DNA of 64,000 nt from Spinacia oleracea. Taxonomy: Eukaryota > Streptophyta > Magnoliopsida > Caryophyllales > Amaranthaceae. Below, piece after piece: positions 2,537 through 33,842 of the stretch. The translations under genes were made by a program, and so were the position numbers. The notes beneath the pieces are model-generated. The model did not search any database. It saw only the letters and a program-made list of their open reading frames with translations, and had not been told where the DNA came from. How positions within the stretch are numbered: position 1 is the stretch's first letter; every line of letters begins with the position of its first letter. Where the stretch lies: contig NC_079492.1 of NCBI RefSeq assembly GCF_020520425.1, positions 138,326,361 through 138,390,360 of the forward strand. Direction: 5' to 3'.

Positions 2537-5057
2537 ACAAACTTTTGTAAAAGACAGTCTTACAGAAAAGACCGCCTTGATGGCAACCAATATGCCACGT
2601 AATTGCTGACATCAGCATGACCCAACAACTTTTTCCAATGAAAGTATGTATCAAAATTTTCTTTTAATTTTCATTTCAAAACCCTAATGCATTTCTCTCT
2701 CCTCAACCACTCTGCCCCTCTTCTCTCTCTCCTTCAAATCGCCGCCCCCTCTCATCGAAATTGTTGTCGGAGATGACGAAGCAGGCGAGGGAGATCACGA
2801 AGACGACGACGGAGGTAACTCTTCCATCCCTCTCTCCTCCAATTTTCTTCAATGGTTTAAGGTTTTTCATGTTTCAATTTTCGTTGATCGAAGGTGTGAG
2901 GGAGCTAGGCGGCGATGGTTGTGGCTTCCTAAGAAGTTGAGGTTGTCTCTACGAGCAACAGAAGCAGCGACAACGGCGGTGGCGCCTGAGGGGAGGAAAA
3001 GAGGAGAGAGAAAGAGTGGATTACGAGGTTGAGTCTCAAACCCTAATTTAATGGTTTTTACACTGATTCTTGTCTGCGATCTCTATTCCAGCGATCTTTC
3101 TCGGTTGACGTTATCATCGGCTATAGCTTCTGGCTGCTGCGGTGGATTGATTTGGTGTCTTGCACTCGATTTTTGATCTCGCGCTTGATGGTGGCGAAGG
3201 TGAGATTTGGTTTGGTTTTGAGCCGGCTGTGGTCTCGGCGTTACGGTGGTACTTCCTTCATCACTCCTTTATTCTAGCTTCTAATTTAGTTAGGTTTTTA
3301 TTTTTCAATTCATGTGATTTGTATTTCGATCGACTTTCTATTGATTTTTTATGTGTCTACTTCCCGTCGTCGGTTGACTTGTCGGAGACCAATTCACCCC
3401 GATCTGTTGAGTGTTGATGCTAGCTTGGCCCGATATGTTCACCCTGATATAGTGATGATTTCGATTAGGTTTTTGTTGCAATTAGAGTGAATTCGATTAG
3501 TTTTTTGTTGTACAGGTATGTGGTACTATAGATCTCCACTTCGGTTGACAATCCGACCTCTTGTACAAATGAAATGTTGTTTCTGACAGGAGGAGGATTT
3601 GCGGTGGTGGCGGTCGGTGACAGACTGAGGATTCGTAGCTGGAAGCACTGTGACAGTTGTTGATGTTGGTGGTGTTTTGTTGTTTTAGTTTCGTTTTATT
3701 TTTAGTTATGAATTGTAATGTTTTAGTTACACTTTTTTGTATTTAGTAAAGAATAATTATGTTTTAGTTTTAGTTATAATTCTGAAATAATGGTCTTCTC
3801 AGTGGAATGGCTGGACTGATTTTCTATGTTTTAGTTATGAATTTTTAAGTTTTAGTCACGATTTTTTTTGTTTTAGTTAAGGTTTTTTGAGTTTTAGTTA
3901 CGTATTTTGAGTTTTCATTCAGGGCTTTAGTTATGATTTTCCGAGTTTTAGTTATGATTTTACCAGTTTAAGTTACGATTTTCTTGGTTTTAGTTAAGAT
4001 TTTTTTATTTTTAGTTATGTATTTTTGTTTCAGATAACGCATTTTAGAGTTTTATTTAAGATACAACATTTTAAGCATTGAAACTAATTAGTTAAGAAAT
4101 TGAATCAATTAGTTAAAAATGAAACTAATAAGTTAAGATTCAGAACCAATAAGTTAAGCAATGTAATAAATTAGTTAAGTGATGTAACATATTAGTTAAA
4201 GCATGCAACCAATTAGTGAAGCACTAAAACTAATTAGTGAAGCACTGGAAGCAATTACTTAGCAATTAGTTATCCACTGGATTTAATTAAGTATTCAATT
4301 AGTTAAGCAACGAAGTTAATTAGTTATGCAACAAAACCAATTAGTTAAGCAATGAACCAATTAGTTTAGTTAAGCAATGAAATCAATTAGTTAAGCATTG
4401 CAACTAATTAGGTAAGATTTTATGAGTTTTAGTTAATAATAAGTTTGTTTTAAATTAATAACTATTCGACTCATAAGTTTAACTATTTGTTTTTATACCT
4501 TAACTATTTTGTTATTCAATTAGTTATGATTTTATTATTTTTAGCTATGTTTTATACTAGTTTAGTTAGTAACCAAAAAAATTGAAAATTTTTAGTTCGA
4601 AAAAAAAAAATTCGAATCAAAAAATAATAATTTAAGCCTAAAATCAAATTAGTTAATCTTGAAGTCCAATTAGTTAAGCATAAAGTCCAATTAGTTAAGC
4701 ATGAAATCAAATTAGTTAAGCCTGGAAAAAAAATACAAAAAAAAAATCGAAAAAAATAAAATAATTTAAGCCTGAAATCAAATTAGTTAAGCCTGAAATC
4801 CAATTAGTTAAGTTTGAAGTCCAATTAGTTAAGCCTGAAGTCCAATTAGTTAAGCCTGGAAAAAAATCAAAAAAAAAAATTCGAAAATAAAATAAAATTA
4901 AAAGATTTTGAAAAAAAAAATTAAAAAAATTTACATGCTGACGTCAGCACATGCACCATCATGGCTGCCAACGGGGCTGTCAGCAAGACTGCCAACAAGG
5001 CGGTCTTTCATGTGAGGCGGTCTTTCATGTGAGGCGGTCTCACACAAAAGTTTCTCA
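2537..5057. mobile_element. Non-autonomous MULE, 2.5 kb, with gene-like interior and tandem repeats
   Basis: Perfect 9-bp duplications TTACATACT flank the element (2528-2536 and 5058-5066). Inverted termini read AAACTTTTGT...AGAC and continue about 80 bp through GACCGCCTTG to a GCTGACRTCAGCA word. Inside, in order: a GC-richer, gene-like stretch at about 2690-3680 (CT-rich leader, GCCGCC words, possible exon/intron pieces, the longest frame 3160-3417); a degenerate array of TTTTAGTTATGATTTT units at about 3680-4060; and a degenerate array of AATTAGTTAAGCAATGAA units at about 4080-4880. No MURA-type transposase is visible. The gene-like part could be a captured host fragment (Pack-MULE), but I cannot name a donor. 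It is close kin to the element at 9271-13979. Confidence 0.85.
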
Positions 5058-5107
5058 TTACATACTGCGTACATTTATATAAAAGAAAGAGCATTCAAAC
5101 GTATATA

Positions 5108-5255
5108 AGGTCACAAGTCCGAGCCCCATCAATTGCAAATGCTTGGGAGTGGCTCAAGCGATGACCTGTGGAGCTTGGCTGGTTAACCTGTGCTAGGTGC
5201 TAGTTCAGTTAGGATCCCTTCTTCTTACCTATTAAAAATAAAAAAAATAAAAAAA
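5108..5255 (+). mobile_element. 5'-truncated tRNA-derived SINE
   Basis: A 148-bp insert ends in an A-rich tail and has perfect 15-bp flanking duplications (ATTCAAACGTATATA at 5093-5107 and 5256-5270). It opens with a B-box-like word (AAGTCCGAGCCCC) and lacks an A box, so the 5' end appears truncated. It sits about 50 bp beyond the right end of the preceding MULE. Confidence 0.8.
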
Positions 5256-5270
5256 ATTCAAACGTATATA

Positions 5271-6086
5271 CAAAATACATGAGACGAAATTAACCTTACT
5301 ACGAGATTACCATCTCTCTTCACATGAGACGGATCAAAAAAAGATGAGACCAAACAAGAGAAGTAAAGCAAGTAGTAAGAACTACTAATAGTAGCCGTTA
5401 TATCCTCTAAAACACTATCAACCAAAGAAAAGTGAAAAAACTATTGTGGCCTATCTTAGTCGATCGCGTTGTTTAGACCATGCGCCATTGCTTGTTTAAG
5501 ACCGAATAGGGATGCTCTACACTCCGCAACTAGAGGTTCCAACTTAGCTCACACACAACGGGATGCTAGCTATATCATTACCTCTAATGTTATATTAGAG
5601 ACTCGTTTGGTAACTGATTATAAAAAGTGTCAATGAGAATGAATTTGCACGTAAATTTATAAAGAAAATCAATAGACATTCCCACGGTAATGTTAGTACA
5701 CTCAAAAGTATACAATACTTCTATATGTTTGATTGTTTTCTTCATACATTTTCATTACATTCATTCTCGTTTTATGAGTGGTATTGGGTGATAATGCAAA
5801 TTTATGATGAAAAACACCATGTTTGAGATAAATTTCATTACCATAGACACTATGATTTATTTATTTTTGTTAAATAACACTTAGATTTATTTATTTTTGT
5901 TAAATAGCACTTAGATTTATTCTTATTCCCATCATAATTCCGGCTACTAATCGGACTGTTAATAAAATGCATACTGGCTACTACGTAGTACTACGTACTT
6001 CGTAAGTTGGTAGTAGCTAGATCGTGATTGATAAAAGGATGAGTTAAAAAGGAAAGGCAAAAGCAGTATCCTGATAATGGGCCTAA
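5271..6086. other. Intergenic DNA without a recognised gene
   Basis: There is no supported coding region. A short duplicated phrase (CTTAGATTTATTTATTTTTG, then TTAAATARCAC) occurs twice near 5878-5925. The remainder is ordinary AT-rich sequence. Confidence 0.5.
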
Positions 6087-7550: not shown

Positions 7551-7657
7551 TACATATGATGTTCATCAAATTAAATAACTATTGAAACAAATTTCGAACA
7601 ATGGACATATCGCACAAAATAAGTTAATTTCTTATCATTTTAGTCAACTATGAGATA

Positions 7658-8011
7658 CTCCCTCCGTTCCTAAATAAATGTCGCATTTGGGCTCCGGTGC
7701 GGTAATTAATAAAATTGTAAAGTGTGTAAGAGTTAATGATTGGGAATGTTTTTTTTTGGGAAAATGATAAAGTAGATAATTGTTTAATTGAATAAAGTAC
7801 AAATAAAAGTGGATGTAGGGATTGAAAGTGGAAAAGTATAGAATGTGTAAGTAAAAGTAATCGTGATTTATAGAAAAGTGGGAAAAGTGTATGGAAAATT
7901 GTGAAAAGTGTATGGAAAAGTGGGAAAAGTATATGTTCAAAAATAGAAATGTGACACTTATAAGGAAACGCCAAAAAAGGAAATGTGACACTTATTTAGA
8001 AACAGAGGGAG
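7658..8011. mobile_element. Stowaway-like MITE, 354 bp
   Basis: Inverted ends begin CTCCCTCCGTTCCTAAATAA (left) and CTCCCTCTGTTTCTAAATAA (right, complemented), each flanked by TA. The interior carries repeated GTGTATGGAAAA and GGGAAAAGTG words. Open frames crossing this element on the minus strand are low-complexity (Phe/His/Ser-rich) and not genes. Confidence 0.9.
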
Positions 8012-8013
8012 TA

Positions 8014-8560
8014 TGATTTTATTGTACATAAATATATATAACTCGAAACATTCAAATGTATACAAGTATACAACGTCACAAACTCACAATCATAATACTT
8101 CGTATTCGTATGATATTTAAAGTAGTAATCCGGTAGTGTCCGAGTCAAGCACTAAATTGTCATTGAAGGTCAGGACGAAAATAAGAAAGGTGATTAGGAC
8201 ATTAAATTTTGCTAGCTTGTTACCCGACATGCATTCATTATGTGATTCAATCCAAATTAATTTTGGATTATACACTCTATTAATTCTCTAACCCCACCCC
8301 CACCCCCACCTTAAGGGGTCTGCAACTCTGCATCACACGGAACATACCTTTGCTTAACCTTTTTAGCCAACTGTCAACTCTTGATTGGATGGATCTAATG
8401 CTGGAGATGGTGACATGTGTTATACTGTTATTGTTCTTCCTACCAACTCAAAATTATTTACGATTATTATTTCGATTCTTTCCTTAAGTCTAGCCACAAG
8501 ATCGATTTTTTTTTTAATAATTTCTTTATGACCTACTTTGTGTTCTTTCCTCAAGTATTT
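8014..8560. other. Intergenic DNA without a recognised gene
   Basis: Nothing gene-like is present. A short CCCCAC repeat lies near 8293-8310. Confidence 0.5.
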
Positions 8561-8569
8561 AATTTATAA

Positions 8570-9140
8570 CAGCGCGTCTCCTGTGAGACCAGTCACACCA
8601 TCAACTTGATGGTGTGACGAACGCGAAACCAATAGCGTACCTCCCTTAAAACTATAAAAACAAAGTAACAGATCTAAACTATAGAAGTAACATACTTAAA
8701 CTAAAAAAGTACCTCCTCTAAAGTTATATATATAAAAAAAAGTAACATGTCTAAACTATAGAAGTAACATACCTAAACTAAAAATGTACCTCCCCTAAAA
8801 CTATTCCGTATAAAAAAAAGTAACATGTCTAAACTATAGAAGTAACATACCTAAACTAAAAAAGTACCTCATCTAAAATTATAAAAAAAAGTAACATGTC
8901 TAAACTATAGAAGTAACATACATAAACTAAGAAGATATCTCTCCTAAAACTACTCCGTATAAAAAAAGTAACATGTATAAACTATAGAAGTAACATACTT
9001 AAACTAAAAAAAGTACCTCCTCTAAAATTATAAAAAAAAGTAACATGTCTAAACTATAGAAGTAACATACCTAAATTCGCAAGTGTGAACTGGTCTCACC
9101 ATCAGTTGATGGTGAGGACAGTCTCATATAAGAATTTGGG
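8570..9140. mobile_element. MULE-like MITE built around a 71-78 bp minisatellite
   Basis: Perfect 9-bp duplications AATTTATAA occur at 8561-8569 and 9141-9149. Imperfect inverted termini share TGAGACC and the hairpin-like word CACCATCAA..TTGATGGTG. The interior (about 8650-9080) is about 5.5 copies of a 71-78 bp unit opening AAAAAAAGTAACATGTCTAA. Alternate copies end in AAAATTAT or in ACTAYTCCGTAT, so the array has a two-unit higher-order pattern. There is no coding content. Confidence 0.85.
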
Positions 9141-9270: not shown

Positions 9271-12200
9271 CAGTAGCTTTTCCGTAAGACGGCCTTACAG
9301 GCGGGTCGCTGTAAGACCAGTGGTCTAACCCACGCGCGCGTGGGCTTACGCGCCCTATAAAGGGTTTTTTTTTCTTTTCATTCCATTTCATTTCTCTCTC
9401 CTCCGTTACCCATTCTGATTCTCTCCCCTCTCTCTCAACTCAAGATTCATGCTTCTTAGAAACCCTATTCTTCAAATATCAGCCACCTTCATTCTTTCTT
9501 CTCCTTCCTCAATCTCTCCTCCTCGCCGCCGTTGCAAGGTACGAGACCATGGATTCCGAATGTTCCTTGCCTCGTTGTCTCTGCTGCCAATGTCTTTGAG
9601 GTAAAATTTTTAGGTTTTTGATTTTTCGGTTTTTTTTTCCTTCGATTTTGTTGAATTTGCGTTTTAAGTTTTTGAAACTCGGCAATCTCCCTCCTTAACC
9701 TCGGCGGTTTTTGCGTTTTAAGTCTCTCTTCCTTTTGTAGATCGAAGAATAGGGACGTCACCTCCTCGTCGCCGCCCCTCCTAAACCCTAGCAACCTTTA
9801 TTCTCGAAGAAGTGAAGGAGGAGATCCGGATTTCCACTAGTATCGACGTTTTTCAACACCGTCAAGAAAGGCGATTGAAGATGCGAGGCCGTTGAAGTTC
9901 TGGTGTGTAATCAGGGGGTTTCAACACCACATGTCTCATGTTCTTATTCCTATTGCGTTGATTAGAACTTATACCCCGTTGTTTTGTTTTATTTAGTTAA
10001 AAATTGTATTGATTTAGTTATAGTTTTGTTTTATTTAGTTAAAAATGGTATTCATTTAGTTATAGTTTTGTTATAGTTTAGCTAAAAAATGTATTGATTT
10101 TGTTATAGTTTAACATGGAAGCTCTCCTGTCAAAGGATGCAAGTCCATATAACCCGAATTGAGCTTTTGTCAAATTTTCGAGTTTTGCAGTTATTTTTGG
10201 CAAAATTTCTGATCAATTTGTGTTGAAATAAACCCGAATTCAATACTTATGTTGAACTTTTGAGTAGTTTGCGTTTTTTGGGCAATTGTTTTCCCAATGA
10301 ATTGGGTTGTTTCAGTAGTTTGCTTAGCTTTTGTTTATATATTAACTAAATTATTCAACAACATAAGTTTGAATTATAAGGTAAATAGTTGAGGTTTTAT
10401 ATGAATTAGTTTGAGGTTTTAAATGAATTAGTCGAGGTTTTTTTTTATTTTGGGTACTAATTAAACAGTGTGAAACATAACTAAAAATAATAAAATCATA
10501 ACTAATTGAATAACAAAATAGTTAAGGTATAAAGACAAATAGTTATGAATTTTAAACAAAATTATTAGTAACTAAAACTCATATAATCTTAACTAATTAG
10601 TGTCATTGCTTAACTATTTGGTGTCATTGCTTAACTATTTGGTTTCATTGCTTAACAAATTGGTTACATTGCTTAACTAATTGATTTCACTGCTTAACTA
10701 ATTGATTTCGCTGCTTAACTATTTGATTCCATTGCTTAACTAATTGAAATTCAAGCTTCACTAATTGGTTTCATTGCGTAACTAATTGGTTTTATTGCTC
10801 AACTAATTGATTCCATAGCTTAACTAATTGATTCCAGTACTTAACTAATTGGTTTTATTGTTTAACTAATTGCCTTCATTGCTGAACTAATTGAATTTCA
10901 AGCTTAACTAATTGGTTCAATTGTGACTAATTGAATTTTAGGGTTAACTAATTGAATTTCAAGCTTAACTAATTGATTTCATTGCTTAACTAATTGATTT
11001 CATTGCTTGACTAATTGATTCTCTTGTTTAACTAATTGAATTTCAGGCTTAACTAATTGAATTTCAAGCTTAACTAATTGATTTCATTGCTTGACTAATT
11101 GATTCTGTTGCTTAACTAATTGAATTTCAGGCTTAGCTAATTGAATTTCAAGCTTAACTAATTGATTTCATTGCTTAACTAATTTATTTCATTGCTTGAC
11201 TAATTGATTATGTTGCTTAACTAATTGAATTTCAGGCTTAACTAATTGAATTTCAAGTTTAACTAATTAATTTAATTGTTTAACTAATTGATTTCATTGC
11301 TTGACTAATTGATTCTGTTGCTCAACTAATTAAATTTCAGGCTTAACTAATTGAATTTTAGGCTTAACTAAATCACGACAATTGAAAATCTTAACCAAAG
11401 ATTTAATCGTAATTAAACCAAAATTATTCTTAACTAAAACAACACTATTCTTAACTAAATATAACTAAAATCTAACTAAAATAAAAAATGACTTAAATGC
11501 AAAAACATAACCAAATCATTATATTTCTACTAAATATAAAAAAAGTACACCTTAAACTAATTGATTATATTACTTAATTAATAGAATTTTAGGCTTAACA
11601 AATACTTATTTAAATCTATAAAATTTTTAGTTTAATTGCTTAACTAAGTTATCATATTTCATAACTAAATATATCAAAAGTGTAACTTAAAACCGATATT
11701 TGTTAACTAAAACAATGAATAACGAAAACAAAATTATCATAACTAAAAGGTAAAAATTCTTAACTAAAACGAATTTCACCTTAACTAAAACTGATTTATT
11801 CTCGACTAAAACAAATTACTCATAACTAAAACAACATTATTCTTAACTAAATATAACAAATGTGAAACTAAAATAAAAAACGACTTAAATCCAAAAAAAG
11901 TCTAACTAAATCATCCTATTTCATAACTAAATATAATAAAATATAACTAAAATCACAATATACTTGACTAAAACAATGAATAGTTAAATTAATCATAATT
12001 ACTGCCAAATTATTCTTAACGACATAACAGCCAATCAAACTAAATAGTTCTATTCTTGGTGGAATGATGCTGAAATTGCTAAAAATTGCGATCCTGTAGC
12101 TGTTTGGTGGTAGTCAATTGAAGATGGCATCTGCAGCAGTATATCCATATGCTATCTCCTCGTGGATTAAGGTATAAAGACAAATAGTTAAACTTTTGAG

Positions 12201-13979
12201 TAAAATAGTTATTAATTTTAAACAAACTTATCATTAACTAAAACTCATGAAATCTTAACTAATTAGTTGCAATGCTTAACTAATTGATTTCATTGCTTAA
12301 CTAATTGGTTTCAGTGCTTAACTAATTAGTTCCGTTGCATAACTAATTGATTTCGTTATTTAACTAATTGAATTTCAAACTTTACTAATTGGCTCTAGTG
12401 TCTCACTAATTGATTTCAGTGCTTCACTAATTGGTTTCATTGCTTCACTAAGTGGTTGTATGGGTTAACTAATTTATTACATTGCTTAACTAATTGGTTC
12501 CAAAACTTAACTTATTAGTTTTATTTTATAACTAATTGATTCAATTGCTTATCTAATTGGTTTCAATGCTTAAAATTTTGTATCTTAACTAAAATTCAGA
12601 AATTCGTTATCTGAAACTCAAAAAATCTTAACTAAAACCAAGAAAATCGTAACTTAAACTCGTGAAATCATAACTAAAACTCGAAATGTCGTAACTAAAG
12701 CACTGAATTGAAAACTCAAAATACGTAACTAAAGCTCAAAAAAACTTAACTAAAACCAAGAAAATCATAACTAAAACTTAAAAAATATTAACTAAAACTT
12801 ATACAATTAAAACCCATAAAATTGTAACTAAATATAACAAAAATGTAACTAAAATGAAATTATTCTTGACTAAATGAAAATTTTTATTTACATCTACAAT
12901 ATAGATTTAAACTAAATTACAATTCTTTGCATTTTGCCTGCTGCCTGTCTCACTCCTCTCCATGCCGCCCAGCAACACGGCAGCAGAAGCACCAACAAAG
13001 CAGCCACGGGAAAGACAAGCCTAGCGCCACAAGCAGCAACAACAACAACAACCACCAAACAATCACCAGTTCAACCGCTGCTCCACCACCATCTCCACCG
13101 TCAACCGCTTGCAATCCTCCAACATTGCAGCCACCGTCACCAACGCAACAAAATCAAAAACAAAAACAAAAATCAAAATCAAAAGAATTAATTTAAAAAA
13201 AAGAAAACAAAGAAACAGTAAACATTACCTAAACTTACAATTTCAGATAAATCAAATTAAAAGGACAAACTCAAACGATTAACCTTAATTTGACATAAAA
13301 AATCATGCGTTCGACCATACTTAGGGTTTGAGATAGAAATCAATACCTCAGATAAATTACAAACTAAATTATAAAAACTAATTAAAAAAAACTGATTCAT
13401 TACCTCACTACAAAGACCGCCGCCGTCGATTCATGAACACCTACGAAAACCTCCGCCGATTCCACATTTCGACCACCGCCTTCACCGCGACTAATATCGA
13501 CCGTAATTTGTGCTAGTTCTTCTGAATGATCGCGGCTCTTCAACTCCGACATAAATCATTCTCTATGACCGCCGCCGCCACCACTTTTTCGGTTTCTAAA
13601 TCATCAACAACTTAGGTTTTCGGAAATAAAAATTAGAAAGTGAAGATATTCAGAGGAGATGAGTACCAGAGGAGAGCAACGACGACAGTGAGAAGTTGCC
13701 GGCATCAAATGCTCAACGACGGCGACGAGAAGTTGCTGGTGGTAGATGATAAACGACGGCGGCGAAGAGAGAGAATGGAAAACCCTAATCTAATGAAGGA
13801 GGAAGAGAGAGAAATTTTTTGGAAGAAATGAAAGTGAAAATGAAAATAAATCATAAAATTGTTATATATATTTTCTTTTATTAATGCTGACGTCAGCAAT
13901 TTACATGGCAGCTTGTGTGGCAGTCTAGTTGACAACAAGGCGGTCTTTCCCGTAAGACCGTCTTTTACAAAAGTTTGTA
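9271..13979. mobile_element. Large non-autonomous MULE, 4.7 kb, with internal repeat arrays
   Basis: Perfect 9-bp duplications TATATTGAA occur at 9262-9270 and 13980-13988. The right terminus (complement: ACAAACTTTTGTAAAAGACG) matches the left terminus of the element at 2537 for about 80 bp; the left terminus is a diverged inverted version (CTTTTCCGTAAGACGGCCTTAC). GC-richer, gene-like arms lie at about 9370-9900 and, in opposite orientation, at about 13400-13830. Between them are B-type arrays (CTTAACTAATTGATTTCATTG) at about 10560-11390 and 12240-12590, and A-type arrays (TAACTAAAACTC) at about 11400-12010 and 12590-12850. No transposase frame is visible. Small frames at 12927-13196 are Asn/Gln/Thr-rich low complexity. 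Confidence 0.85.
9329..9344. repeat. 16-bp perfect palindrome CCCACGCGCGCGTGGG
   Basis: It lies just inside the left end of the 4.7-kb MULE and is unusually CpG-rich for this window. It could form a hairpin; function unknown. Confidence 0.8.
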
Positions 13980-20830: not shown

Positions 20831-21392
20831 CATGGAGTTTATCCTTTTTTGTTACCTTATCTCGAATCCATACAAGTACAGAAGATTAGCAGTGATATCT
20901 ATAGAAAAACAAAACATTTAGCACTAGACTTAAATTCAAAATTGTACTAGACTCTACAGAGCTAGTCCCCACTGGGTGATAGTTAGCCACCGTCACAGAT
21001 TCAGAGGGGATAAAATGTGAAACCAAGAAACTGGAATCCACAAAAAAGCAACTGTACGTTTTCAGATCTTACTGCCATTTTTTAAATTAGTCCAGACCCG
21101 GCCCACCACATTTTACCTGTACTTGTATTATTTTTGCTACTAGAATTACCTAATAATAATACGTTAATTAAAATGTGAGTATATACTAATGATGCATGAT
21201 TACGAGGAAAAGATGTTTATGGACTATTATGGTCACTTCTATCTGTTTTTGTATAACAAAGGTCGAAAGATAAATAATTTTGAAAAAAAATAGAAAGGTA
21301 ATGCGTAATATTTTATAGAATAAGCAAAAATCATATATTTTCCGTATAAATTTGATGAGTTAAGTTTTGTTCTTCTGATCTTTGTTTGGCTG

Positions 21393-21480
21393 AACTGAAT
21401 TAAACTGAACTGAATTGAATGAAGTTGAACTGAACTGAATTGAACTGAACTGAATGGAGCTGAACTGAACTGAATGAATA
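21393..21480. repeat. (TGAACTGAAC)n minisatellite
   Basis: Repeated CTGAACTGAA/TTGAA units run into AATAAATAATAG repeats. The same GAACTGAA word fills the Harbinger-like MITE at 52498-52614. Confidence 0.75.
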
Positions 21481-21542
21481 ATAAATAATAGATAATAAAT
21501 AATAAACAATAAATAATAAGTATTAAAATTCGCCATTGTCAT

Positions 21543-22640: not shown

Positions 22641-23373
22641 ATGTTTCGGGTTTTGAACCAAGTAAGTTTTTTCCAGATCTAATATTTGAATTTTCTAATG
22701 TTGATATTTGTTCAATACCTGTGATTGAACACTTGATTGTTTGTTTTACTTCAATCCTATACTATTTTTTTGGATCTACGGTTTTTTTGGTTTCCATTAT
22801 TAGTGAAAAATGCACTTAATTATTATTAATTTTTTTTTTTTGAGGGAGGTGTTTATTTAGAATGTGTGACTAAGTCAGTCCAATCATAAGATGTAAAATT
22901 TGGGTTTGAAAAATGGGGATAAATTAATGCTAAAATGGAGTCAAATGATGCCAATATATGCTAATCCACTTGGGGACGACATGGTCATGTATTAGGTGAT
23001 GATATCTTTTCATAATGCTGCCCCACTTATAGTTCATATGTAAGCAATTGAGAATATAAAGTTTCTGTTTTCTAGTTTTTGTTGGTTTTATGCACATAAA
23101 TTTCGTTCCATTTGTTTATGCAAAGTAGTTTGTGAAATGTGTGGCCAAAAGTCTTTGTCCTTGAAGAGCTTCGAGTTTCATGATTTTACGTACATTTTGC
23201 TTAGAACAACTGTTTTTTTTCTTCTACCCCTAGTGTTGGATATGGGTATTGTCTGAGATTCAAGTTTCTGTTTGGAATTTCAGGAAAACGGTTTACTTGT
23301 ACATATATGGCACAGGAAATCTTCCAAGAGGGAAATAGTTAACAAGTATGGATCTTCGAGAAGAGTCCTCTAA
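22641..23373 (+). promoter_or_regulatory. Upstream ORF 2 (36 codons, spliced) overlapping the main start
   Basis: The ATG at 22641 reads seven codons to the donor after 22661 (AACCAA|GTAAGT). It continues from the acceptor at 23284 and stops at 23371-23373. It therefore overlaps the main ATG (23348) in another frame. The 5' UTR intron 22662-23283 (622 bp) has good GTAAGT and TTTCAG signals. Confidence 0.45.
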
Positions 23374-26314
23374 ATTAGAGTCTTTAGCAGGAACTACATC
23401 AAGAAGGCTTTCATCTGCATCTTCTGTGTTTTACTCAGCTAATCCCTCTCCGTTCTTTTCACCAAGCTCACCAAAGTCTCAGTTTTCAGAGTCTAATCGC
23501 ACTGACGTACCACTCGAAGATGTCAACATTTCCAGTAAAGAAATTCCAGACCCTGAGCCAGAGATGAATGTAAGGCTTCCTTCATCAGACATTCCAGGTT
23601 CCCAACTGGCAGATGATCTGCAATTGCTCGAACGTGTTTCTTCCTCAATGGGAATATCCAATGAAACGGCCTCCACTCATAGCCAAGGTCGATGGATTGA
23701 ATACTCGAGGCCTAGAGGGAGACATAAGAAAGTCGTGAGACACTTTGGAGTGCCGTGTCCTCCAAATGCGGCTTCTCTGTCCACCAGTAGAATTAAAAAC
23801 AGTGATGTGTATATTGGTTTGTATGGAAGAAAACCTCCACTTTTGAGATTTGTTAATTGGTTGCGTGCTGAGCTGGAAGTTCAAGGGGTCAGTTGCTTTG
23901 CTTGTGATAGGGCTCGGTGCAGGAACACGAGGAAGCAGAAAATTGTGGAGCGAGCAATGGATATTTGCAGCTATGGAGTGGTGATCATAACAAAGAAGTC
24001 ATTTAAGAATCCATACACTATTGAGGAGCTGAGATTTTTCTCAAGTAAGAAGAACCTTGTTCCTGTTTTCTTTGATGTTGCTCCTAGTGATTGCCTTGTT
24101 AGGGATATAATTGAGAGAAGGGGAGAACTCTGGGAGAAACACGGGGGAGACTTATGGAACTTATATGGCGGGTTAGAGAAGGAATGGAAAGAAGCCATTT
24201 ATGGTCTGTCTCGAATTGATGAGTGGAAATTGGAGGCACATGATGGTAACTGGAGAGAATGCATATTAAGGGCTGTCACTCTGTTAGCGATGAGATTAGG
24301 AAGGAGAAGTGTGGTGGAGAGATTGAGCAGATGGAAGGAGAAGGTAGAGAAAGAGGAGTTCCCTTTGCCTCGAAATGAGAACTTCACTGGTAGGAAAAAG
24401 GAGTTGTCAGAGATTGAGTTTATGCTGTTTGGAGATGTTACTGGTGATTCAGAAAGAGACTATTTTGAGATCAAGACTAAGCCCAAAAGGAGGAATGTGA
24501 CTATTAGTTGGAGTAGGAGTAATTCAATGGAGAGGCAGAGAGAGGGTGGTAAGAAAAAAGGTAAAGATCCTGTCATATGGAAAGAATCGGAGAAAGAGAT
24601 TGAGATGCAAAGTGCCAGTTTCCCTCAACAGCAGCCTCCTAATATACCAAAACCAAAGATTGGCAGAAAATATGCTAGAAGAAAAAGATCGATGAAAATT
24701 GTATACGGCAAAGGTATAGCAGTTGTGGCTGGGGAATCTGGGATTGGAAAGACGGAGCTCCTTCTTGAGTATGCATACAAGTACCATCAAAGATATAAGA
24801 TGGTGTTGTGGATAGGAGGGGAGAGTAGATATATTAGGCAAAACTATTTAAACCTCTGGCAGTTTTTAGAAGTTGATGTAGGAATTGAAACCTGTGCTGG
24901 AAAGAGTAGAATAAGAAGTTTTGAAGAGCAAGAAGAGACGGCTATGTTCAGAGTACGCAGAGAACTGATGAGGAACTTGCCGTACCTGGTGATTATAGAT
25001 AATTTGGAGAATGAAAAAGACTGGTGGGACCACCGGCTCATAATGGAGCTTCTTCCTAGGTTTGGTGGTGAAACCCATTTCATAATATCCACACGCCTGC
25101 CTCGTGTAATGAACCTCGAGCCCATGAAACTCTCCTACCTGTCTGGGGTGGAGGCTCTCTCTTTGATGATGCAGGGAAGTACGTCATCAGACTTTCCACT
25201 CACGGAAATTGATGCTCTTCGTGTCATTGAGGAGAAACTTGGAAGGATAACGTTAGGCCTTTCTGTTGTCGGAGCAATTCTGTCAGAGCTTCCTATTAAT
25301 CCCACTAGGCTTTTAGATACTATCAACAGGATGCCTTTAAGGGATTTCTCATGGAACGGTAAAGAAGGTAATGCACTGAGGAAAAACACCTTCCTTTTGC
25401 AATTGTTAGAGGTTTGCTTCTCAATATTCGACCATGCTGATGGACCCAGAAGTTTGGCAACAAGGATGATTCAGGCAAGTGGCTGGTTTGCACCAGCTGC
25501 AGTTCCAGTCTCTCTTCTAGCAGCAGCTGCTCACAAAATGCCAGAAAAGCACAAAGGAACTCGGCTATGGAAAAAAATCCTGCGTTCTTTGCCTTGTGGG
25601 TTTACTTCCTACACCAAGAGATCTGAAGCAGAAGCGGCTTCCATGTTGTTGAGGTTTAATATTGCAAGGAGTAGCACCAAGGAGGGATATATTTATTTGA
25701 ATGAAATTGTCAAGCTTTATGCCCGTAGAAGAGGGGTTACCGGTGTTGCTCACGCAATGGTGCAAGCTGTTATTGGTCGGGCATCTGTAGTTCATCATCC
25801 CGAACATTTATGGGCGGCATGTTTTTTGATATTTGGGTTTGGAAATGATCCTATAGTTGTGGAACTCAAGGTCTCTGACTTACTTGTTCTGGTAAAAGAA
25901 GTTGTTTTACCGCTTGCTATAAGGGCATTTATCACATACTCACGGTGCAATGCAGCTCTTGAGCTCCTCCGTTTGTGCACGAATGCACTTGAGACGGCTG
26001 ATCAGGCATTTGTGACTCCAGTTGATAAATGGTTGGACAAGTCCCTTTGTTGGAAACCGGTTCACACCAACGCGCAGTTAAATCCCTCTTTATGGCAGGA
26101 TATGGCATTAGCAAGAGCTACTGTATTAGAGACAAGGGCCAAGCTTATGCTGAGAGGAGGACAGTTTGACATTGCTGATGATCTGGTTAGGAAGGCTATT
26201 TTTATTAGGACTTCAATATCTGGTGAAAATCATTCTGATACTCTTTCTGCTAAGGAAACCTTGGCCAAAATTAGCAGGCTTTTAGCAAATGTTCAAGCAC
26301 ATACCTCACCATAG
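23348..26314 (+). CDS. XTNX-type TIR / NB-ARC-like / TPR protein, 988 aa
   Basis: Single-exon CDS for a non-canonical NLR-like protein. Residues 1-150 are Ser-rich with no known fold. A TIR domain starts near 152 (DVYIGLYGRK) and keeps the IEEL motif with glutamates 226/227 where TIR NADases carry the catalytic Glu. A basic linker follows. The nucleotide-binding domain has a P-loop GESGIGKT (Lys468), a kinase-2 motif YLVIIDNLEN near 546-555 and an RNBS-B-like FIISTR near 578. In place of LRRs, the C-terminus (about 905-985) has a TPR-like helix pair (GQFDIADDLVRKAIFI). This layout, and the WIGGESRYIRQNYLN stretch after the P-loop, fit the XTNX family conserved across land plants. Its role is unclear; a function in immunity is inferred only. 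An in-frame start upstream is not needed, and the leader has a spliced intron. The neighbouring CNL gene is convergent. Confidence 0.93.
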   Translation: MDLREESSKLESLAGTTSRRLSSASSVFYSANPSPFFSPSSPKSQFSESNRTDVPLEDVNISSKEIPDPEPEMNVRLPSSDIPGSQLADDLQLLERVSSSMGISNETASTHSQGRWIEYSRPRGRHKKVVRHFGVPCPPNAASLSTSRIKNSDVYIGLYGRKPPLLRFVNWLRAELEVQGVSCFACDRARCRNTRKQKIVERAMDICSYGVVIITKKSFKNPYTIEELRFFSSKKNLVPVFFDVAPSDCLVRDIIERRGELWEKHGGDLWNLYGGLEKEWKEAIYGLSRIDEWKLEAHDGNWRECILRAVTLLAMRLGRRSVVERLSRWKEKVEKEEFPLPRNENFTGRKKELSEIEFMLFGDVTGDSERDYFEIKTKPKRRNVTISWSRSNSMERQREGGKKKGKDPVIWKESEKEIEMQSASFPQQQPPNIPKPKIGRKYARRKRSMKIVYGKGIAVVAGESGIGKTELLLEYAYKYHQRYKMVLWIGGESRYIRQNYLNLWQFLEVDVGIETCAGKSRIRSFEEQEETAMFRVRRELMRNLPYLVIIDNLENEKDWWDHRLIMELLPRFGGETHFIISTRLPRVMNLEPMKLSYLSGVEALSLMMQGSTSSDFPLTEIDALRVIEEKLGRITLGLSVVGAILSELPINPTRLLDTINRMPLRDFSWNGKEGNALRKNTFLLQLLEVCFSIFDHADGPRSLATRMIQASGWFAPAAVPVSLLAAAAHKMPEKHKGTRLWKKILRSLPCGFTSYTKRSEAEAASMLLRFNIARSSTKEGYIYLNEIVKLYARRRGVTGVAHAMVQAVIGRASVVHHPEHLWAACFLIFGFGNDPIVVELKVSDLLVLVKEVVLPLAIRAFITYSRCNAALELLRLCTNALETADQAFVTPVDKWLDKSLCWKPVHTNAQLNPSLWQDMALARATVLETRAKLMLRGGQFDIADDLVRKAIFIRTSISGENHSDTLSAKETLAKISRLLANVQAHTSP

Positions 26315-26735: not shown

Positions 26736-29700
26736 TCAAATAATATTGAGTACAAAGTCTTTAATGTTGGAAATCTTGTGATGCTCTGTCCCGTTAACCT
26801 TGACGGCTTTCTCCAGCAGGGGGCAGTCTTGAATTAGCAAATAGCTTAATTTAGTGAGTCGCTTGATGGCATCCTCTGTCGGTAGTTTCTTCAAATTCTT
26901 GCACCGGGCAGGATACAATGAATCAAGAGATGAAAGGTTTCCGAGCCAATCGGGGAGATATTCCATACTCTCAAAGTCACAAATTACCAGTCCTTTCAGC
27001 GTTGTAAATTGTTGGAGTTGTTCTGGAAGACTCTGCAACTTTTCCCAACCATACAAATGCAAAGTTTTGAGAGAAGTGATTTTCGAGAGGAAGCTCATAT
27101 CTGGAAATTCATCTAGTTCATAATAACTTCCGATGTGCAAAGTAGTAAGGCATGGGAGGTGGTATAACCAATCAGGTGGGTGACTTATCATCTTTGTCAT
27201 ACTCGTAATGCTGAGATTACAAAGACGACTTAATCCTGTCAGGTCTGGAAGTTTCTTTACCTTTGGACAATTACTGAACCACAATCTCTCCAGCGACTTG
27301 CAATCTAGTAATCCCTCTGGAAAATTTGTTAAACCTCTAATATCGAAAATGTCAACTTGACGCAACAAGCCAAGACAGCTGAGGTTGGATAGAGACACCA
27401 GGTTGGGGCAGTAGTTTATTTGCAACAGCTCAAGGGAAATCAACTTCGATAGGCTCTCTGGCAAATAACTCAGATTCTGGCATCTTTTTATTCTCAATGT
27501 TTGGAGAGATGTACAATATTCAGCCAACTCCTCTGGCAAATGTGTGATTTCTGTTATCCCATCAATTTGAACAACTTTTAGACAAGTGAGAGAACCTTTG
27601 TTGGATAGTATCTTTGACAAGAGAAGACTGCTAGTGGTGATGTTTGTAACAGTCAGCTGTTCAAGAGAGGGGAATTTATATGGAGTTGTTTTCAATTCAG
27701 GACAGTCTTCTATTTTTAATTCCTCCAACAAAGGAAAAATAGTCCACTCCCCCGAACTTGGCTCAACCCATTCTGTTAATTTGTCAAGCCCTAATAATTC
27801 AACTTGTTTCAAGCTTGGAAAATACATCACCCCAGAACTGGAACTACTGCTTGCACCATACAACTCAACACCTATACACTCCAAGCTTTCCATATTTTTA
27901 ATCTTCAGTTTTTCAAGAAAAGGCAAGTGCCCTAATGTTGGCAACTTTCGGCACCTCCTACAATTAACAAGCTCTATTATCTTTATCACATCCATTCTCA
28001 TCAACCAGGATGGAAAGTTTTCACCCCCATATCTTTGAATGGTCAGAAGTCTCAAGTTACGGTTTGGCTCCAACCCATCTAACACCTCCTCATGTTTTAC
28101 CCAGTCGTTGTCGTTATTCCAGAATAGCCTCAACTTCTTAACTCTTGACTTCTCTGATAAACTGGCACTTTCAGCATCTTGTTTACTTTTGATCAGTTCA
28201 AGACCTCGAATTTCTAATTTGTCACTTATGTGAGGCAAACCTCCCAATTCAGAAATCTGGAATCCCCCTTCACGCACCCCTAAAATTGGAAGAGTTTGCA
28301 AACACGTCAACTGCCCAATCATCCCTGCTGGTAAACTGATTAATCTGTCAATATAAAGATGCCTCAGATTAACCAAGTTACTTAATCCTCCAGGTACCTC
28401 CTCTAGTAGATCACATCCCAAAAGATTCAAAGTTTGCAAGTTGTACCATTTAGTAATAAATTCAGGCAATACCTTTATTGGGTTATATACCAAACTGAGT
28501 ACCTTTAAACACTTCAATCCAGCAATAGATTCTGGAACCTCTTTTAGACCCGTGTCTTGTAAATTTAATACACGCAGGTACTTTACATGCTTCAACAATC
28601 CTCCAGGTGAATTCTTATATATGACTAGTGTACGTAAATTTTTAACTGCCACTTTGTCTTTGTCCCAACATTCAGTTTTCAGTTCCTTACGTTCATAGAT
28701 TGCCAAATGTCGAACATCAGATATGGCTGTCACTGGGTTACCTGCCTCCAATATTAACACTTGGTGCTTCGAAACTGAAGTTGCTAGGTCATGCACTAGG
28801 TCATGCATACCATACCGAACTATTTCTCCAATTTCATCCCTTAGTGCTACATGTAAGAAGGAAATACTTAACAATGCATTAATATAACCTTCAGCAATAT
28901 CCTCCATCAAGTCTCTACTTTCAGATTGTTGGACAAGGCCTAAAGCCATCCACTTCCATATCAGCCAGTTTTTATCCATGTGATAACTTTTAAGACTAGT
29001 AGCACAGAAACAAAAACATTTCTGCAAGAGTGGAGATGACAAATGCTTGTAGCTGAGCATCAAGGATGGTAATATCCCAGTTCCATCCTGCGGTAAGTCC
29101 CATATCTCACTTTGTTCAATTTTCTCCCACTCGTATGGATCACTTTTTGTTTGCAGCATTCCTCCAATGCTCTTGATTGCAAGTGGAACTCCCTTACATT
29201 TCTCAACAATATTTTTACCAGTGGTTTCAAATATAGAAATATACTCCGGGGACATATTTGCGAAGGCAACTTCCTTGAACAAAGACCAACTATCATCTGC
29301 CAAGAGTTTCGGCAGGTGATGGACAAAAGCATGCATTTTATGTGCTACATCAGTAGCTCTAGTTGTCACCAAAATCATGCTTTCATGAGAACCACCAATA
29401 CTTTCAAGTGAACTTCTCGTTGCATCCCACATCTCTTGATCTTCATCCCAAACATCATCAACAACAAGTAAGTACTTTTTTCCATCTAGTTTATTCTTGA
29501 GTTTCCGTACTGCTATTTCGCTGCTGCTGACAGTCTCACTACTACTCATATAAATGTACTCCACCATTTTGTTTAATATCCCTTCTGTGGTGAAAACTGT
29601 TGGTGCGACAACCCAAATTCTTTCTGTGAAATTATCCGTCACTCGTTTATCCTCAAATACCTTTTTCGCTAGGACTGTTTTTCCAATACCTGTCACATGC

Positions 29701-30978
29701 ATAAGTACCAACTACCTTAATTATGTGCAATAAACTATGTTAACTTACTAATTATCCAAAATAAATTACATGCTATCTGTAATATGTACTGCAATACGGA
29801 GTACTACGTACATTGTGTTAACACAAATTCTTATTTACAAGTGGTGTACAATAAATATTGTATACCGGAGTAAAAGTTAAATCAAAATGCTTAAAAGTTA
29901 AATCAAAATGCTTAAAAGTTAACTCAAAATGCTTAAAAGTTACCCTTATGTATGTAAAAGTAATGTATTGTTTAATGATAAAAGTTTTTATTTTATTTTT
30001 TCAAAATCACTAATAATGTGTAAAATTAATCATTTAACCCTTTAAAAGATTTATCTATCAACTTTTTTTATAATAATATAAAAGTTAATTAAAACTATGT
30101 TAAAGTTACAAAAAAAAAAACTGGTTAAAAGTTATCTTAGTGTACAATAAATTTATTATACACCTTTGTATCAACTACCTTATTTACATATTTTCATATT
30201 AAAATTATTTTGATGACGCATTCCTACGCGTCGCCCATATGTACCATTTAAAATCAGACACTTAGGATTGCGACTTTTATCATCACCTGTAAAGTAAAAT
30301 CATATGAAGAATCTTAATACCTCCAATTCCCATGATGGCAATTACAGAGAGGCGGTTACTGCTGACATTGTAGGAATCCTGTGAAGGGTTGCACAGTTTG
30401 TCCACCACGGAATCAACATCAGAATCTCTGCCAACAATCAGGGACATATCTACATTTCGTCGAAGATGCTGTAGACGATCCTCTGCAGCCGCGCCTTGGC
30501 TGGTAATAATGTTTGTTGCAGCTGGCAGTGGGGAGTGCATTAGACCCCTGAGCTGAGAAATGGTTTGAGCCTCTTTCAAGGCTTCGTCAATGTTGGTATT
30601 GATCCTACTAATCCAGTTGCCAATCTTACGGCGATAGTAAAGCCGTTTCAAAGGCCAGAGCAAGTGCCTTGTCTTCCCAGTTTTGGGCCTTGTCTTCATG
30701 ACAAAGTCGCGCTGCTTCTCATAGGCCAACACATCCAGCATGTCCTCCACATTGTATAAAATGCTGACTACATTTCTAAGCCATGATTCCACTGTTTTGT
30801 CTGCATCATTCATCTTAAGCACAATGCTTTCAATTGGCTGAATCTTGCGCTGGAGCTTCTTGAGTTCTTTTCTGAAGCCCCAGACGACGAGGTTGATCTC
30901 ATCTGTGAACCAATTTTGAAATGCGTTAACCATGGGTTTCGCAGTCTCCACCAAAAGCGGCAGAACTACAGATTCCAT
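26736..30978 (-). CDS. CC-NB-LRR (RGA-like) disease-resistance protein, 1203 aa
   Basis: Two exons: 30978-30321 and 29689-26736, with a 631-bp intron (GGAG|GTATTA ... GACAG|GTATTGG). The join restores the P-loop GIGGIGKTVLAK (Lys223), so the intron splits that motif. An Rx-type coiled coil fills residues 1-190, with an EDVID-like YNVEDMLDVLAYE. Then come kinase-2 LLVVDDVW (about 293-300), RNBS-B MILVTTR, GLPL as GVPLAIKS and MHD as GMHDLVHDLA (about 513). About 20 irregular LRRs run from residue 560 to the end. All switch motifs are intact, so it looks functional: an intracellular pathogen sensor or helper of the RGA class. A MULE-like MITE occupies over half of the intron. The codon just after the exon-1 donor runs on only 11 codons, so unspliced RNA would give a truncated coiled-coil protein. 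Confidence 0.93.
29840..30178. mobile_element. MULE-like MITE inside the CNL intron, 339 bp
   Basis: It is flanked by 10-bp duplications CTTATTTACA (29830-29839, 30179-30188). Imperfect inverted ends share GGTGTACAATAAAT / TTATTGTACAC. The interior repeats AAAAGTTAAATCAAAATGCTT about three times. Confidence 0.75.
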
Positions 30979-31193
30979 TTTTTTTTCTTAATTTTTGTTT
31001 TAGTTCTGGATGGAATTAACAGATGAAAAGGGTGATGTTTATTTCAGAATGAACAAAATGCACTCAGTTCGTTCCTAATTAATATTAAGTTAAAGACTTA
31101 AAGCAGTGCACTCGTTCCTTATCCAAATATCGTCCACGAATGTTATTTTCCAAGTGGGAGGGAACGAAGGAAGCCTACCCCAACAGTCAGGTA

Positions 31194-31530: not shown

Positions 31531-31531
31531 T

Positions 31532-32025
31532 GAGGTTGGCGTAGCGGCAGTCTGTGAGGTATTTCATAATACCTCACAGGGTTATTTTCGTAAATTTACA
31601 CCAATATCAAACAAATTAGGAATATGACAAAATGAGTAGCACAATAGGAAAAGGACAAAATTAATAAATAAAAGAGAAGAGAATGACAGAAAAAGAGGAG
31701 AGAGAAAGTGACATGAAGTACCATTTCTCTTTTACAATGTACCATTCTTTAAAAAACAAGTACCATTTTATTTTAAAATGTACCATTCTTTAAAAAACAA
31801 GTATCATTTTTTAACAAAACACCATTTGTTTTTTACAAAATGTCATTCTTACTTAAAAAATACCATTTCATTTCATTTCATTTTTTGTACCATTACATCA
31901 TTTGTTCGATCCATAATCGGTCTAAAAAAATATGACAGCAAACAGTTTTGTCTTTTCTCTATTTTGTCTCTTTGTTGGTGTTATGTTTTTGGTGATACAT
32001 CACAGCATGGGATTTTTACTTCCTC
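31532..32025. mobile_element. MULE-like element with poor termini and internal TACCATTTTT repeats, 494 bp
   Basis: Perfect 10-bp duplications GGCAATTACT occur at 31522-31531 and 32026-32035. The ends are only weakly inverted (GAGG...CTGTGAGGTAT versus GAGG...CTGTGATGTAT). The interior has repeated TACCATTTTTTAAAAAACAAG units. A strong hairpin TGAGGTATTTCATAATACCTCA lies near the left end. Confidence 0.6.
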
Positions 32026-32227
32026 GGCAATTACTAGCTACGGAGTAGTTTGAAAAGGAAATTATACAGTAAAAAACAATTCTCTATCAGTCCTTTAATT
32101 TAGCTCCGTGTAGGACCTTACAATTTGTCCATTTTGAAAATCGCAAAACTTATTACAGCAAGCTTTGCAGCAGAGAAGTGTTATATGTCCCTCCCACTTT
32201 TTGCCAGCCTTAAAAGGCACGGACTAT

Positions 32228-32318: not shown

Positions 32319-32578
32319 TAGGAGAGTAGGAGACCCTCACATTAATTGAATTATTTGCCTAATTTAAACCACAAAATGAGAAATTTCAGATTCAAACATT
32401 AAGACCCACAATTTCTCATCATATCTATTATCATATCAACAAAACATAACTTCTGGGATAATATCAGAATTTGCTACTTTAATAAGCATAAACGGTAACA
32501 AATTCACTCCACTAATCCATTTGCATAAATAACTTAATACAAGTAATTAAAAAATAACTTTAAAAATAGAATTACTTG

Positions 32579-32828
32579 CCTGAGTATCTCTGGCATGAAT
32601 TTTGTCATCAGAATCAATATGGGCGCCAAAAGGGTGATTAACCCACTTCTGGGATTCCGCCGAAACGACGTCGGTGTGAGAAACTGAGAATTCAGGAGAA
32701 TTGAGGGCAATGGTTTTTTCCAGGCCATTTGAGCAAAATTAAGGGTTTGTTTTTCACAAATTCAATGGTCTGGGATTCAACGGATAAAGATTCGGCTTTG
32801 AGAAAGGATGAAATCAGCAGCTTCATAG
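32579..32828 (-). pseudogene. Aminoacylase-1 (M20 peptidase family) gene fragment
   Basis: Minus-strand frames give SQTIEFVKNKPLILLKWPGK, then ILLNS, then SHTDVVSAESQKWVNHPFGA and IHARDTQ. This is the N-terminal half of plant aminoacylase-1, with the metal-binding HTDVV motif. A small insertion between LLNS and HTDVV shifts the frame. The fragment ends at a plausible exon edge (CAG followed by GCAAGT, a possible GC donor), so it probably arose by DNA duplication. Part of it (CCAGGCCATTTGAGCAAAATT onwards) is repeated at about 32857-32920. Confidence 0.8.
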
Positions 32829-32984
32829 TAATTGGGGTTCGGTTCAGCAGTGTTATTTCCAGGCCATTTGAGCAAAATTCAATGGTCCGGGATTAGGGAT
32901 AAAGATTCGGCTTTCATAGTAACTTACTTATTTGTGCTGAAAATATTTGAAAAAACTTATTAGTGTGTGAATTTATATTATCTG

Positions 32985-33253
32985 ACTTATCTGAACTTAT
33001 TTTGTCTAAAATAAGTTAAAATAAGTCAAATAGAATAGGGCTAGATTATTCAATATTCTATGAGACACTAATAAATAAGAACGGAAGGAATAATAAAAAT
33101 AATAATAGTAGTAAGTAAAGATGGACATTACAATATAATTAATAGTAATATTTAATATTATAATAATAAAATAAAATCATTAAAGAATAAGATGAATATA
33201 ATACTGTTTTTTGAACTGAATTGCACCGCAATTCAGCCCAAAAGAACATAGCC
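32985..33253. repeat. Remnants of Harbinger-like MITEs
   Basis: TCTGACTTATCTGAACTTAT ... AATAGAATAGGGCTA near 32985-33048 resembles the element at 57309-57551. TTGAACTGAATTGCACC ... CCAAAAGAACATAGCC near 33209-33251 resembles the one at 52498-52614. Both lack complete ends. Confidence 0.45.
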
Positions 33254-33354
33254 TTTATCCATGTCTTATTAATTGTCACAAGTTATATAACTTTTTTTAA
33301 TTTTTGTGCCTAGGTAAACCATGAAAATAAAAGGGAAAACGAGGGAGTATGTTG

Positions 33355-33842
33355 GGGCCTTTCCGAGTTAATCTCATTGATTGGAAAAAAAATTCCAATC
33401 AAATGACATTTTCGTAAATAATTGATGATTTTATTATGAAAATGCCATTAAATGTGGGTTAAAGTACAGTGACATGTCATCAAACGTGGACCACATGTAC
33501 GGTCATTATTGTATTTTCATAACACATCAACAACTATATAATATACAGTCAACAACTCACAATATAAATAAGTTTCTACTAATAAACAATCTACAACTAT
33601 AAATATACAGTCAATCATTTACCAATAAACAATATTGCATTTTAGTAATTCATCAACAATCATAAAATATACGGTTAACGACAAGTGGTATACAATCAAC
33701 ATGAGTAATATGCAGTCAATAACTACAAATATACAGTCAAAACTTAACATTATACCATATACAATTTTCGGATAAAATATTTAAGAAAATGCCATTGGAT
33801 TGGAAATTTTTTCCAATCACAGAGATTAACTCGGAATTTCTC
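33355..33842. mobile_element. MULE-like MITE, 488 bp, next to the FYR/WD40 gene promoter
   Basis: Perfect 9-bp duplications AGTATGTTG occur at 33346-33354 and 33843-33851. Inverted termini share CCGAGTTAATCTC..TGATTGGAA for about 35 bp. The interior repeats ATACAGTCAACAACT-like units. It ends about 210 bp upstream of the next gene's start codon. Confidence 0.88.

Follow-up and report, generated by a model that had tools for sequence, protein, structure and literature searches.

Mutator-like elements (MULEs) are described as duplicating 8-11 bp of target DNA (PMC6446971), and the VANC proteins of Arabidopsis are reported to bind tandem motif arrays in the noncoding parts of VANDAL MULEs and to remove methylation (PMC5735166, PMC10398659). 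The THAP domain of the Galileo transposase is described as binding sites in the tandem repeats of long terminal inverted repeats (TIRs) (PMC3688188). The spinach (Spinacia oleracea) DNA considered here, a stretch of 64,000 nucleotides at C6:138326361-138390360 that is referred to as the window, contains seven MULE-like elements, E1 to E7, counted as six independent families (E1/E3, E2, E4, E5, E6 and E7). Their cores are family-specific and recur at a step of about 21-22 bp or its multiples, and most arrays preserve a short core better than the rest of the unit. We lean towards reading the arrays as putative protein-binding platforms that were inherited from MULEs, with the motifs of each family set two helical turns apart.

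Elements and their common period

The elements and arrays are listed with window coordinates.

2537..5056, plus strand: E1, a 2520-bp non-autonomous MULE-like element with the target site duplication (TSD) ATTACATACT at 2527-2536 and 5057-5066.
3818..4857, plus strand: arrays of E1 (3818-4026, 4071-4416 and 4632-4857), 21-bp units with the core TAGTTA and two kinds of spacer.
8570..9140, plus strand: E2, a 571-bp miniature inverted-repeat transposable element (MITE) with the TSD AATTTATAA and palindromic ends.
8653..9075, plus strand: array of E2, pairs of AAGTAACAT at 22 bp, 50-56 bp from pair to pair.
9271..13979, minus strand: E3, 4709 bp, related to E1, with the TSD TATATTGAA.
29822..30185, plus strand: E4 with corrected ends, 21-bp units with the core AAAAGTTA; the right end is placed from the family.
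31532..32025, plus strand: E5, 494 bp, with the TSD GGCAATTACT, GAGG ends and weak TIRs.
31716..31890, plus strand: array of E5, core (G)TACCATT.
33355..33842, plus strand: E6, a 488-bp MITE with the TSD AGTATGTTG and a TIR of about 60 bp that includes a palindrome.
Within 33355..33842, plus strand: cryptic array of E6, core ATACAGTCA and variants.
50257..50482, plus strand: E7, newly found, a 226-bp MITE with the TSD CTTCAACCTC; the family consensus is 278 bp.
Putative cores by family: TAGTTA in E1/E3, AAGTAACAT in E2, AAAAGTTA in E4, GTACCATT in E5, ATACAGTCA in E6 and AAAAGAACAT in E7.

Scored against dinucleotide shuffles, the strongest lag of the window copies is 21 in E1 (z 19.1), E3 (z 27.1) and E4 (z 5.1) and 22 in E2 (z 7.3). 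The window copy of E5 gives lag 41 and then 21 (z 5.1 and 4.7), and that of E6 gives 62 and then 21, under the 95% null of the maximum. The strongest lag of the family consensus is 22 for E2 and 21 for E4, E5 and E6. Taking the window copy of E1 with these four consensuses, five of the six independent families have their strongest lag at 20-22. In the other DNA that was fetched, 87 of 1255 overlapping scan windows are strongly periodic, 19 of them at lag 20-22; 12 of these 19 are themselves copies of the E1, E4 or E2 families, and the remainder is 7 of 75, or about 9%. At this base rate, which is rough given that window size and null differ from those of the family tests, at least five of six families at 20-22 would be expected with P ~3e-5.

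The steps from core to core are mostly near multiples of 10.5. E1 contains 32 TAGTTA, with 15 steps of 21 and four of 42, and E3 contains 66 TAACTA (36 steps of exactly 21, 11 of 42) together with nine TAGTTA, so that its arrays run both ways. The successive steps in the consensus are 22, 52, 22, 56, 22, 51, 22, 55, 22, 50 and 22 in E2, 21, 21, 20, 21, 18, 21, 20 and 22 in E5, and 20, 42, 21, 22, 42, 21, 21 and 21 in E6. The E7 consensus has three AAAAGAACA inside its left end (22 and 21 apart) and three TGTTCTT inside its right end (21 and 22 apart).

Copies were searched for in the spinach genome itself (894 Mb, six large contigs). At first look there were 2426 candidates for E1, 1019 for E2, 3514 for E4, 237 for E5, 277 for E6 and 753 for E7; 40 were scored per family, and the copies used were drawn from the best-scoring matches (30 each for E6 and E7, window copies included, 20 each for E2, E4 and E5, and two for E1). 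Counting duplications of 8-11 bp with at most one mismatch, a TSD is present in 18 of 20 E2 copies, all 20 E5 copies (exactly 10 bp in 11), 25 of 30 E6 copies and 23 of 30 E7 copies. It is also present in the window copy of E1 and in one of the two others (L128 has the 10-bp TATGAATAAT, L129 none). The E2 copies range from 563 to 951 bp, six of the 20 having been chosen for length.

An earlier note on this DNA had named six MULE-like elements with flanking duplications, and all six of its intervals are indeed bounded by exact 9-10 bp repeats in the window. Five of the duplications hold, that of E3 in the window copy, where alone it was examined. The sixth, at 29840-30178, does not: when the family of E4 is examined in the same way as those of E2 and E5, none of its 20 copies has a TSD at these ends. 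The family ends lie 23 bp to the left and 22 bp to the right of the inner palindromes, a 9-10 bp TSD is found there in 13 of 20 copies, and the supposed left duplication, CTTATTTACA, is internal to the true family end. The window copy of E4 has a damaged right end, and no TSD is assigned to it. The 8-11 bp length of MULE duplications is accordingly found in the families of E1-E7, at the corrected ends for E4 and in the window copy alone for E3.

E7 came from a scan of 3413 exact direct-repeat pairs of 9-11 bp, 120-6000 bases apart, which were scored for inverted ends with the period ignored. The ranking was E6, E1 and then E7 (a pair within the array of E1 itself being skipped), with E4 high too. 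Among the 10-bp pairs outside arrays (n=327), four scores reach at least 28 against 0.26 expected; these are E1, E7, E4, whose pair is the later-disproved duplication, and 52498-52632. Five of the 9-bp pairs (n=1168) do so against 0.92 expected, namely E6, two pairs nested in E6, 830-1375 and 2013-2411, and E2, E3 and E5 fell below the cut of these inverted-end scans. By eye, the inverted ends at 52498-52632 agree better with a 3-bp TTA duplication, and this pair was rejected as MULE-like. Inverted ends are strong in E6, clear in E1, E7 and E4, weaker in E2 and E3 and weak in E5; MULEs of the non-TIR kind can lack them. A palindrome within at most the first 65 bp is present at 10 of the 14 ends tested (E2, the right end of E3, E4, the left end of E5, E6 and E7) and is equalled in no more than 2.1% of random stretches of the window, eight of the 14 reaching 1% or less; no outstanding palindrome was seen at either end of E1, at the left end of E3 or at the right end of E5.

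Arrays were defined as Tandem Repeats Finder (TRF) rows with a unit of at least 15 bp and a score of at least 50. They cover 3315 of 9121 bases (36.3%) in the six elements named in the note and 1704 of 54879 (3.1%) outside, a coverage reached in 0.14% of trials that placed the same intervals at random (p=0.0014), and five of the six elements hold one against a random mean of 2.1 (p=0.013). The note's excess of arrays is borne out as clustering in elements with 9-10 bp TSDs, and its minisatellite in every element holds for five of six: E6 has no TRF row and is cryptic, with a period of 21 in the family consensus (z=5.9). The units are unrelated in sequence outside the two large elements, as had been claimed; what had been overlooked is the common period of 20-22 bp, the TAGTTA shared by E1 and E3, the seventh element and the true ends of E4. 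As controls, 13 further stretches of the window that are MITE-like or have inverted ends were tested. Four exceed z>3.2 at lag 20-22, three of them being 5- or 10-bp repeats and one a Stowaway-like element (7655-8014) with a genuine 21/42-bp period and top lags of 42 and 21. Arrays are thus not special to the MULE-like class, since other MITE-like stretches of the window carry them too.

MITE-like stretches of the CTGAA/ATAAGTTCAG kind with 5-, 10- and 20-bp repeats lie at window positions 21390-21527, 52512-52569 and 57361-57515; the GATCA/AAGTTCAG units described for BvMSat07 of beet are related to them (PMC2820488). Long subterminal arrays with 41-bp and 65-bp units were also seen in CACTA-like ends elsewhere (L002:2412-3251, L003:148-1062 and L024:380-687). 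As candidates for the 21-bp type these were rejected, the units being 65 bp in L024 and 41 bp in L002/L003 and the ends CACTA-like by eye.

Conserved cores and GTACCA clusters at transposase genes

Units were aligned by wrap-around alignment and compared with a null in which the same mismatches are spread evenly over the unit. Of 13 array tests, 10 show the best 8-bp core retained beyond what this even-decay null predicts (p<.05). The best-kept octamer is CTAAACTA in E2, where it adjoins the spacing core AAGTAACAT, and AATATACA in E6; in both families it adjoins or overlaps the core used for spacing. Across the eight arrays of E1 and E3 there are four kinds of spacer, and all unit consensuses have TAGTTA and the 21-bp step.

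Between copies, core constraint is supported in three families (E1, E2 and E7), E6 leans towards it and E5 does not. When E1 is compared with its two copies, TAGTTA is the least changed of the 21 unit offsets (10 of 514 pairwise differences, against 108 of 2365 for the zone overall and up to 8 of 72 at the worst offset); ascertainment is equal for each offset, and the comparison involves three sequences only and few events. Core and spacer divergence are.012 and.030 in E2 (circular-shift p=.002) and.006 and.021 in E7, where none of 177 shifts is as low. Mutations spread evenly over the unit, as in a neutral minisatellite, are therefore not the rule here. In 29 of 40 E1-family matches the main alignment starts at q1077 or later and is centred on the array zone; most end pieces are either unmatched or less similar, except for the last 29-42 bases. 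An AGT core uniting all the families with the VANC motifs was considered and dropped; it is missing in E7, and the match is post hoc.

The core of E5 recurs at MULEs that carry transposase genes. The genome has 1960 candidates for PF10551, of which 150 were listed, and four transposase loci of these were looked at. In a FAR1-type family with a 402-aa frame, GTACCA is the most strongly enriched 6-mer of the noncoding flank on both sides of the gene (13 against 0.32 expected, rank 1/739, on the 5' side; 5 against 0.16, rank 1/460, on the 3' side). Its left end starts with GAGG like the ends of E5 and its first core matches the E5 core (GTACCATT), with no longer end homology between the two. The 3' cluster occurs at 25 places (30 matches, five short pieces excluded), and 19 of the 25 have a listed PF10551 match no more than 5 kb away. 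A second FAR1-type family, with a 550-aa frame, has six GTACCA in a 1-kb window of its 3' flank against 0.23 expected, and 28 of the 33 full-length places of this flank are near a listed PF10551 match. A locus with a 586-aa frame has four GTACCA in one window of 1 kb (p=1e-4, uncorrected for the number of windows and cores). At the fourth locus (L123), where an E1-family element adjoins the gene, GTACCA is not enriched. The same scan at L122, a locus with no MULE, found CAGTCA enriched (5 against 0.33) by way of a 27-bp array. As the cluster is also present in two MULE families that bear transposase genes, the core of E5 looks inherited and not picked up. The note had suggested that arrays make good non-autonomous cargo, which comes closer to these results than its other suggestion; what it misses is that the core cluster of E5 also belongs to two transposase-bearing MULE families. 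No autonomous partner of E1-E4, E6 or E7 was found among the four loci looked at from the 150 listed.

A 1.15-kb noncoding stretch at L125:7102-8255 contains 12 AAGAACA distributed over the two strands, with several neighbouring sites on one strand 21 or 42 bp apart, and AAGAACA is similar to the core of E7. The clusters lie upstream of the L125 gene and were rejected as part of its MULE, as two other copies of that MULE are unmatched in the corresponding stretch.

Within the window, E4 separates two long frames of an NLR-like resistance gene (26736-30987, minus strand) and is probably intronic. The frames are at 26736-29711, with leucine-rich repeats and an NB-ARC-like part, and at 30283-30987, the domains being recognised by eye from the translation. 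A 991-aa frame at 23339-26314 (plus strand) has, also by eye, an N-terminal part like the TIR protein domain and a P-loop ATPase-like part. A 204-bp tandem repeat, present 2.7 times at 37995-38543 (plus strand), lies within an open frame and corresponds to a protein repeat of 68 residues.

Proposed binding platforms and competing readings

It is proposed that every MULE lineage carries a short core of its own, repeated every 21-22 bp or so or at multiples of this step, which would place neighbouring sites on one face of the helix. The small copies would have taken their arrays over from MULEs, and a family-specific DNA-binding protein may land on the phased cores. The binder could be encoded by the MULE, most simply as the FAR1-type transposase or else as a VANC-like accessory protein, and its binding may serve end recognition, activation of a promoter or escape from silencing. 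One prediction is that FAR1-type MULE proteins bind GTACCA, and some dispersed 21-bp minisatellites could be explained as parts of transposons.

Several observations weigh against this proposal. The even-decay test gave p=.06 in E2, where a different octamer is best,.06 in E3e and.80 in the short window array of E4, and its null assumes independent units, which higher-order repeats violate; the spacer-kind and between-copy tests weigh more for that reason. In the latter the cores were picked by hand, the difference between core and spacer is not significant in E6 (.037 and.052, p=.15), and core conservation between copies is absent in E5 (.017 and.014, p=.72). The strongest lag of the E7 consensus is 54, followed by 8, with 21 only third, and the stretch that holds E7 had already been flagged for lag 21 before the end scan found the element. 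At any lag, five of the 11 controls with a usable null exceed it, and other MITEs of the window bear repeats as well. Distances between GTACC sites of the 402-aa MULE show no significant phasing at 21 (p=.73), and a 21-bp phase across the whole element was rejected; phasing at 10.5 is not clear either (p=.09). Two additional elements with 9-10 bp TSDs, inverted ends and subterminal repeats (L012:2742-3131 and L007:754-1434) were rejected as members of the 21-bp type, having no 21-bp lag.

It is possible, if on the unlikely side, that the arrays are subterminal repeats used for transposase synapsis or specificity alone, as proposed for Galileo, with no role in silencing. Inside both ends of E7, which was found with the period ignored, lie three cores that are inverted with respect to those at the other end; in the FAR1-type families GTACCA is clustered either on both sides of the gene or downstream, and the Galileo THAP domains are reported to bind tandem-repeat sites of long TIRs (PMC3688188). 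Against this, the arrays of E1, E2, E4, E5 and E6 are internal, one-directional and not symmetric about the ends, and arrays seem to vary too much in size to serve as a strict device of end recognition.

A tentative and more specific form of the binding proposal, which we consider unlikely as a whole, is that the core of each MULE family is an 'address' read every two helical turns by the DNA-binding domain of its own FAR1-type transposase. If this were true, small non-autonomous families would keep the address for mobilisation or to stay unsilenced. The transposase itself would then do the reading in a system otherwise convergent with VANC, and beet's degenerate 21-bp minisatellites would be what is left of such a system.

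The first suggestion of the earlier note was that MULE-type replication or repair creates or tolerates arrays. A by-product of this kind, with slippage, gap repair or unequal exchange during transposition making arrays that then drift without function, would agree with the variable array length among copies of E2, the different number of arrays in E1 and E3, the minisatellites in other mobile elements here and the lack of core constraint between E5 copies. Slippage, however, should wear all unit positions alike, yet a short core is kept in most arrays and decay along the unit is uneven between copies of E1, E2 and E7 too. One core and its 21-bp step persist with four unrelated spacers in E1 and E3, and it is the array zone on which the E1-family alignments centre, most end pieces being less similar or unmatched. 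The sequence does not favour such an origin, and slippage with drift seems rather unlikely.

Mere coincidence, by which arrays and a common period arose by chance in a repeat-rich stretch, is already disfavoured and very improbable: the six elements were chosen post hoc and other MITEs of the window bear repeats, but the random placement of intervals, the lag of 20-22 in five of six families and the 21-22 bp core steps of E7, which was found by its ends and duplication alone, all argue against it. Least probable of all is that the step reflects the size of small interfering RNAs (siRNAs), of which 21-22 is common in plants, or DNA curvature and nucleosome phasing in these A/T-rich sequences and not a binding protein, for the lags of 10-11 wanted by simple A-tract phasing are outside the eight top lags of every element, and divergent spacers with short cores would yield heterogeneous siRNAs.

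Comparison with known systems

The minisatellite BvMSat05 of sugar beet resembles the present arrays in its 21-bp units, with monomers 38-100% identical, and in adjoining a conserved 50-bp motif with two palindromes reminiscent of the element ends described here; it is arranged head-to-head and, in the parts of the report drawn on here, is presented as a minisatellite and not as part of a transposon (PMC2820488). The SIRC cassettes of Arabidopsis likewise combine short direct repeats with diverse spacers and are linked to MITEs and MuDR, a fixed step not being among the features reported in the portion of that source used here (PMC10342631). The Mutator/Foldback element Tm1 of root-knot nematodes is described as having 8-10 bp TSDs, MITE-like members and a variable number of tandem units, but its units of about 14 bp lie within TIRs and its transposase is of the Phantom type (PMC3169594). 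In Galileo and Foldback the likeness is a repeated transposase-binding motif within the element, binding being reported for Galileo, which differs in its P-element superfamily THAP transposase and in having its sites in long inverted repeats (PMC3688188). Tandem repeats within long TIRs of the Foldback type are not found in E1, E2, E4, E5 or E6, the exceptions to one-directional arrays being E7, which is symmetric, and E3, which has both directions. Among the titles listed in a literature search that covered subscription journals little, none dealt with arrays of cores at a 21-bp step in MITEs of the MULE type from spinach or beet.

The VANC-target arrays are the closest parallel. A VANC system as such was considered and rejected: the motifs YAGTATTAY and AGTTGTMC (targets of VANC21 and VANC6) have one and five exact matches in the window, none of them inside E1-E7, and of the 149 genome matches to DUF1985, found in VANC proteins, the two loci examined fit the plant mobile domain PF10536 better and have no PF10551 match in the six frames scanned. 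The arrays are not classed as a VANC system on these two grounds. What they share with the VANC targets is a short tandem motif in noncoding parts of MULEs and arrays that diverge between related families, and the VANC motif is reported also from a non-VANDAL element, AT9TSD1, with binding and loss of methylation demonstrated in Arabidopsis, a form of sequence-specific anti-silencing (PMC5735166, PMC10398659). Unlike VANDALs, the elements described here are non-autonomous, most have palindromic ends and their cores follow a 21-22 bp step. By analogy, these arrays may work like the VANC-target arrays, and a similar architecture in independent families of another lineage would allow a test of whether plant MULEs generally use motif arrays of fixed helical step.

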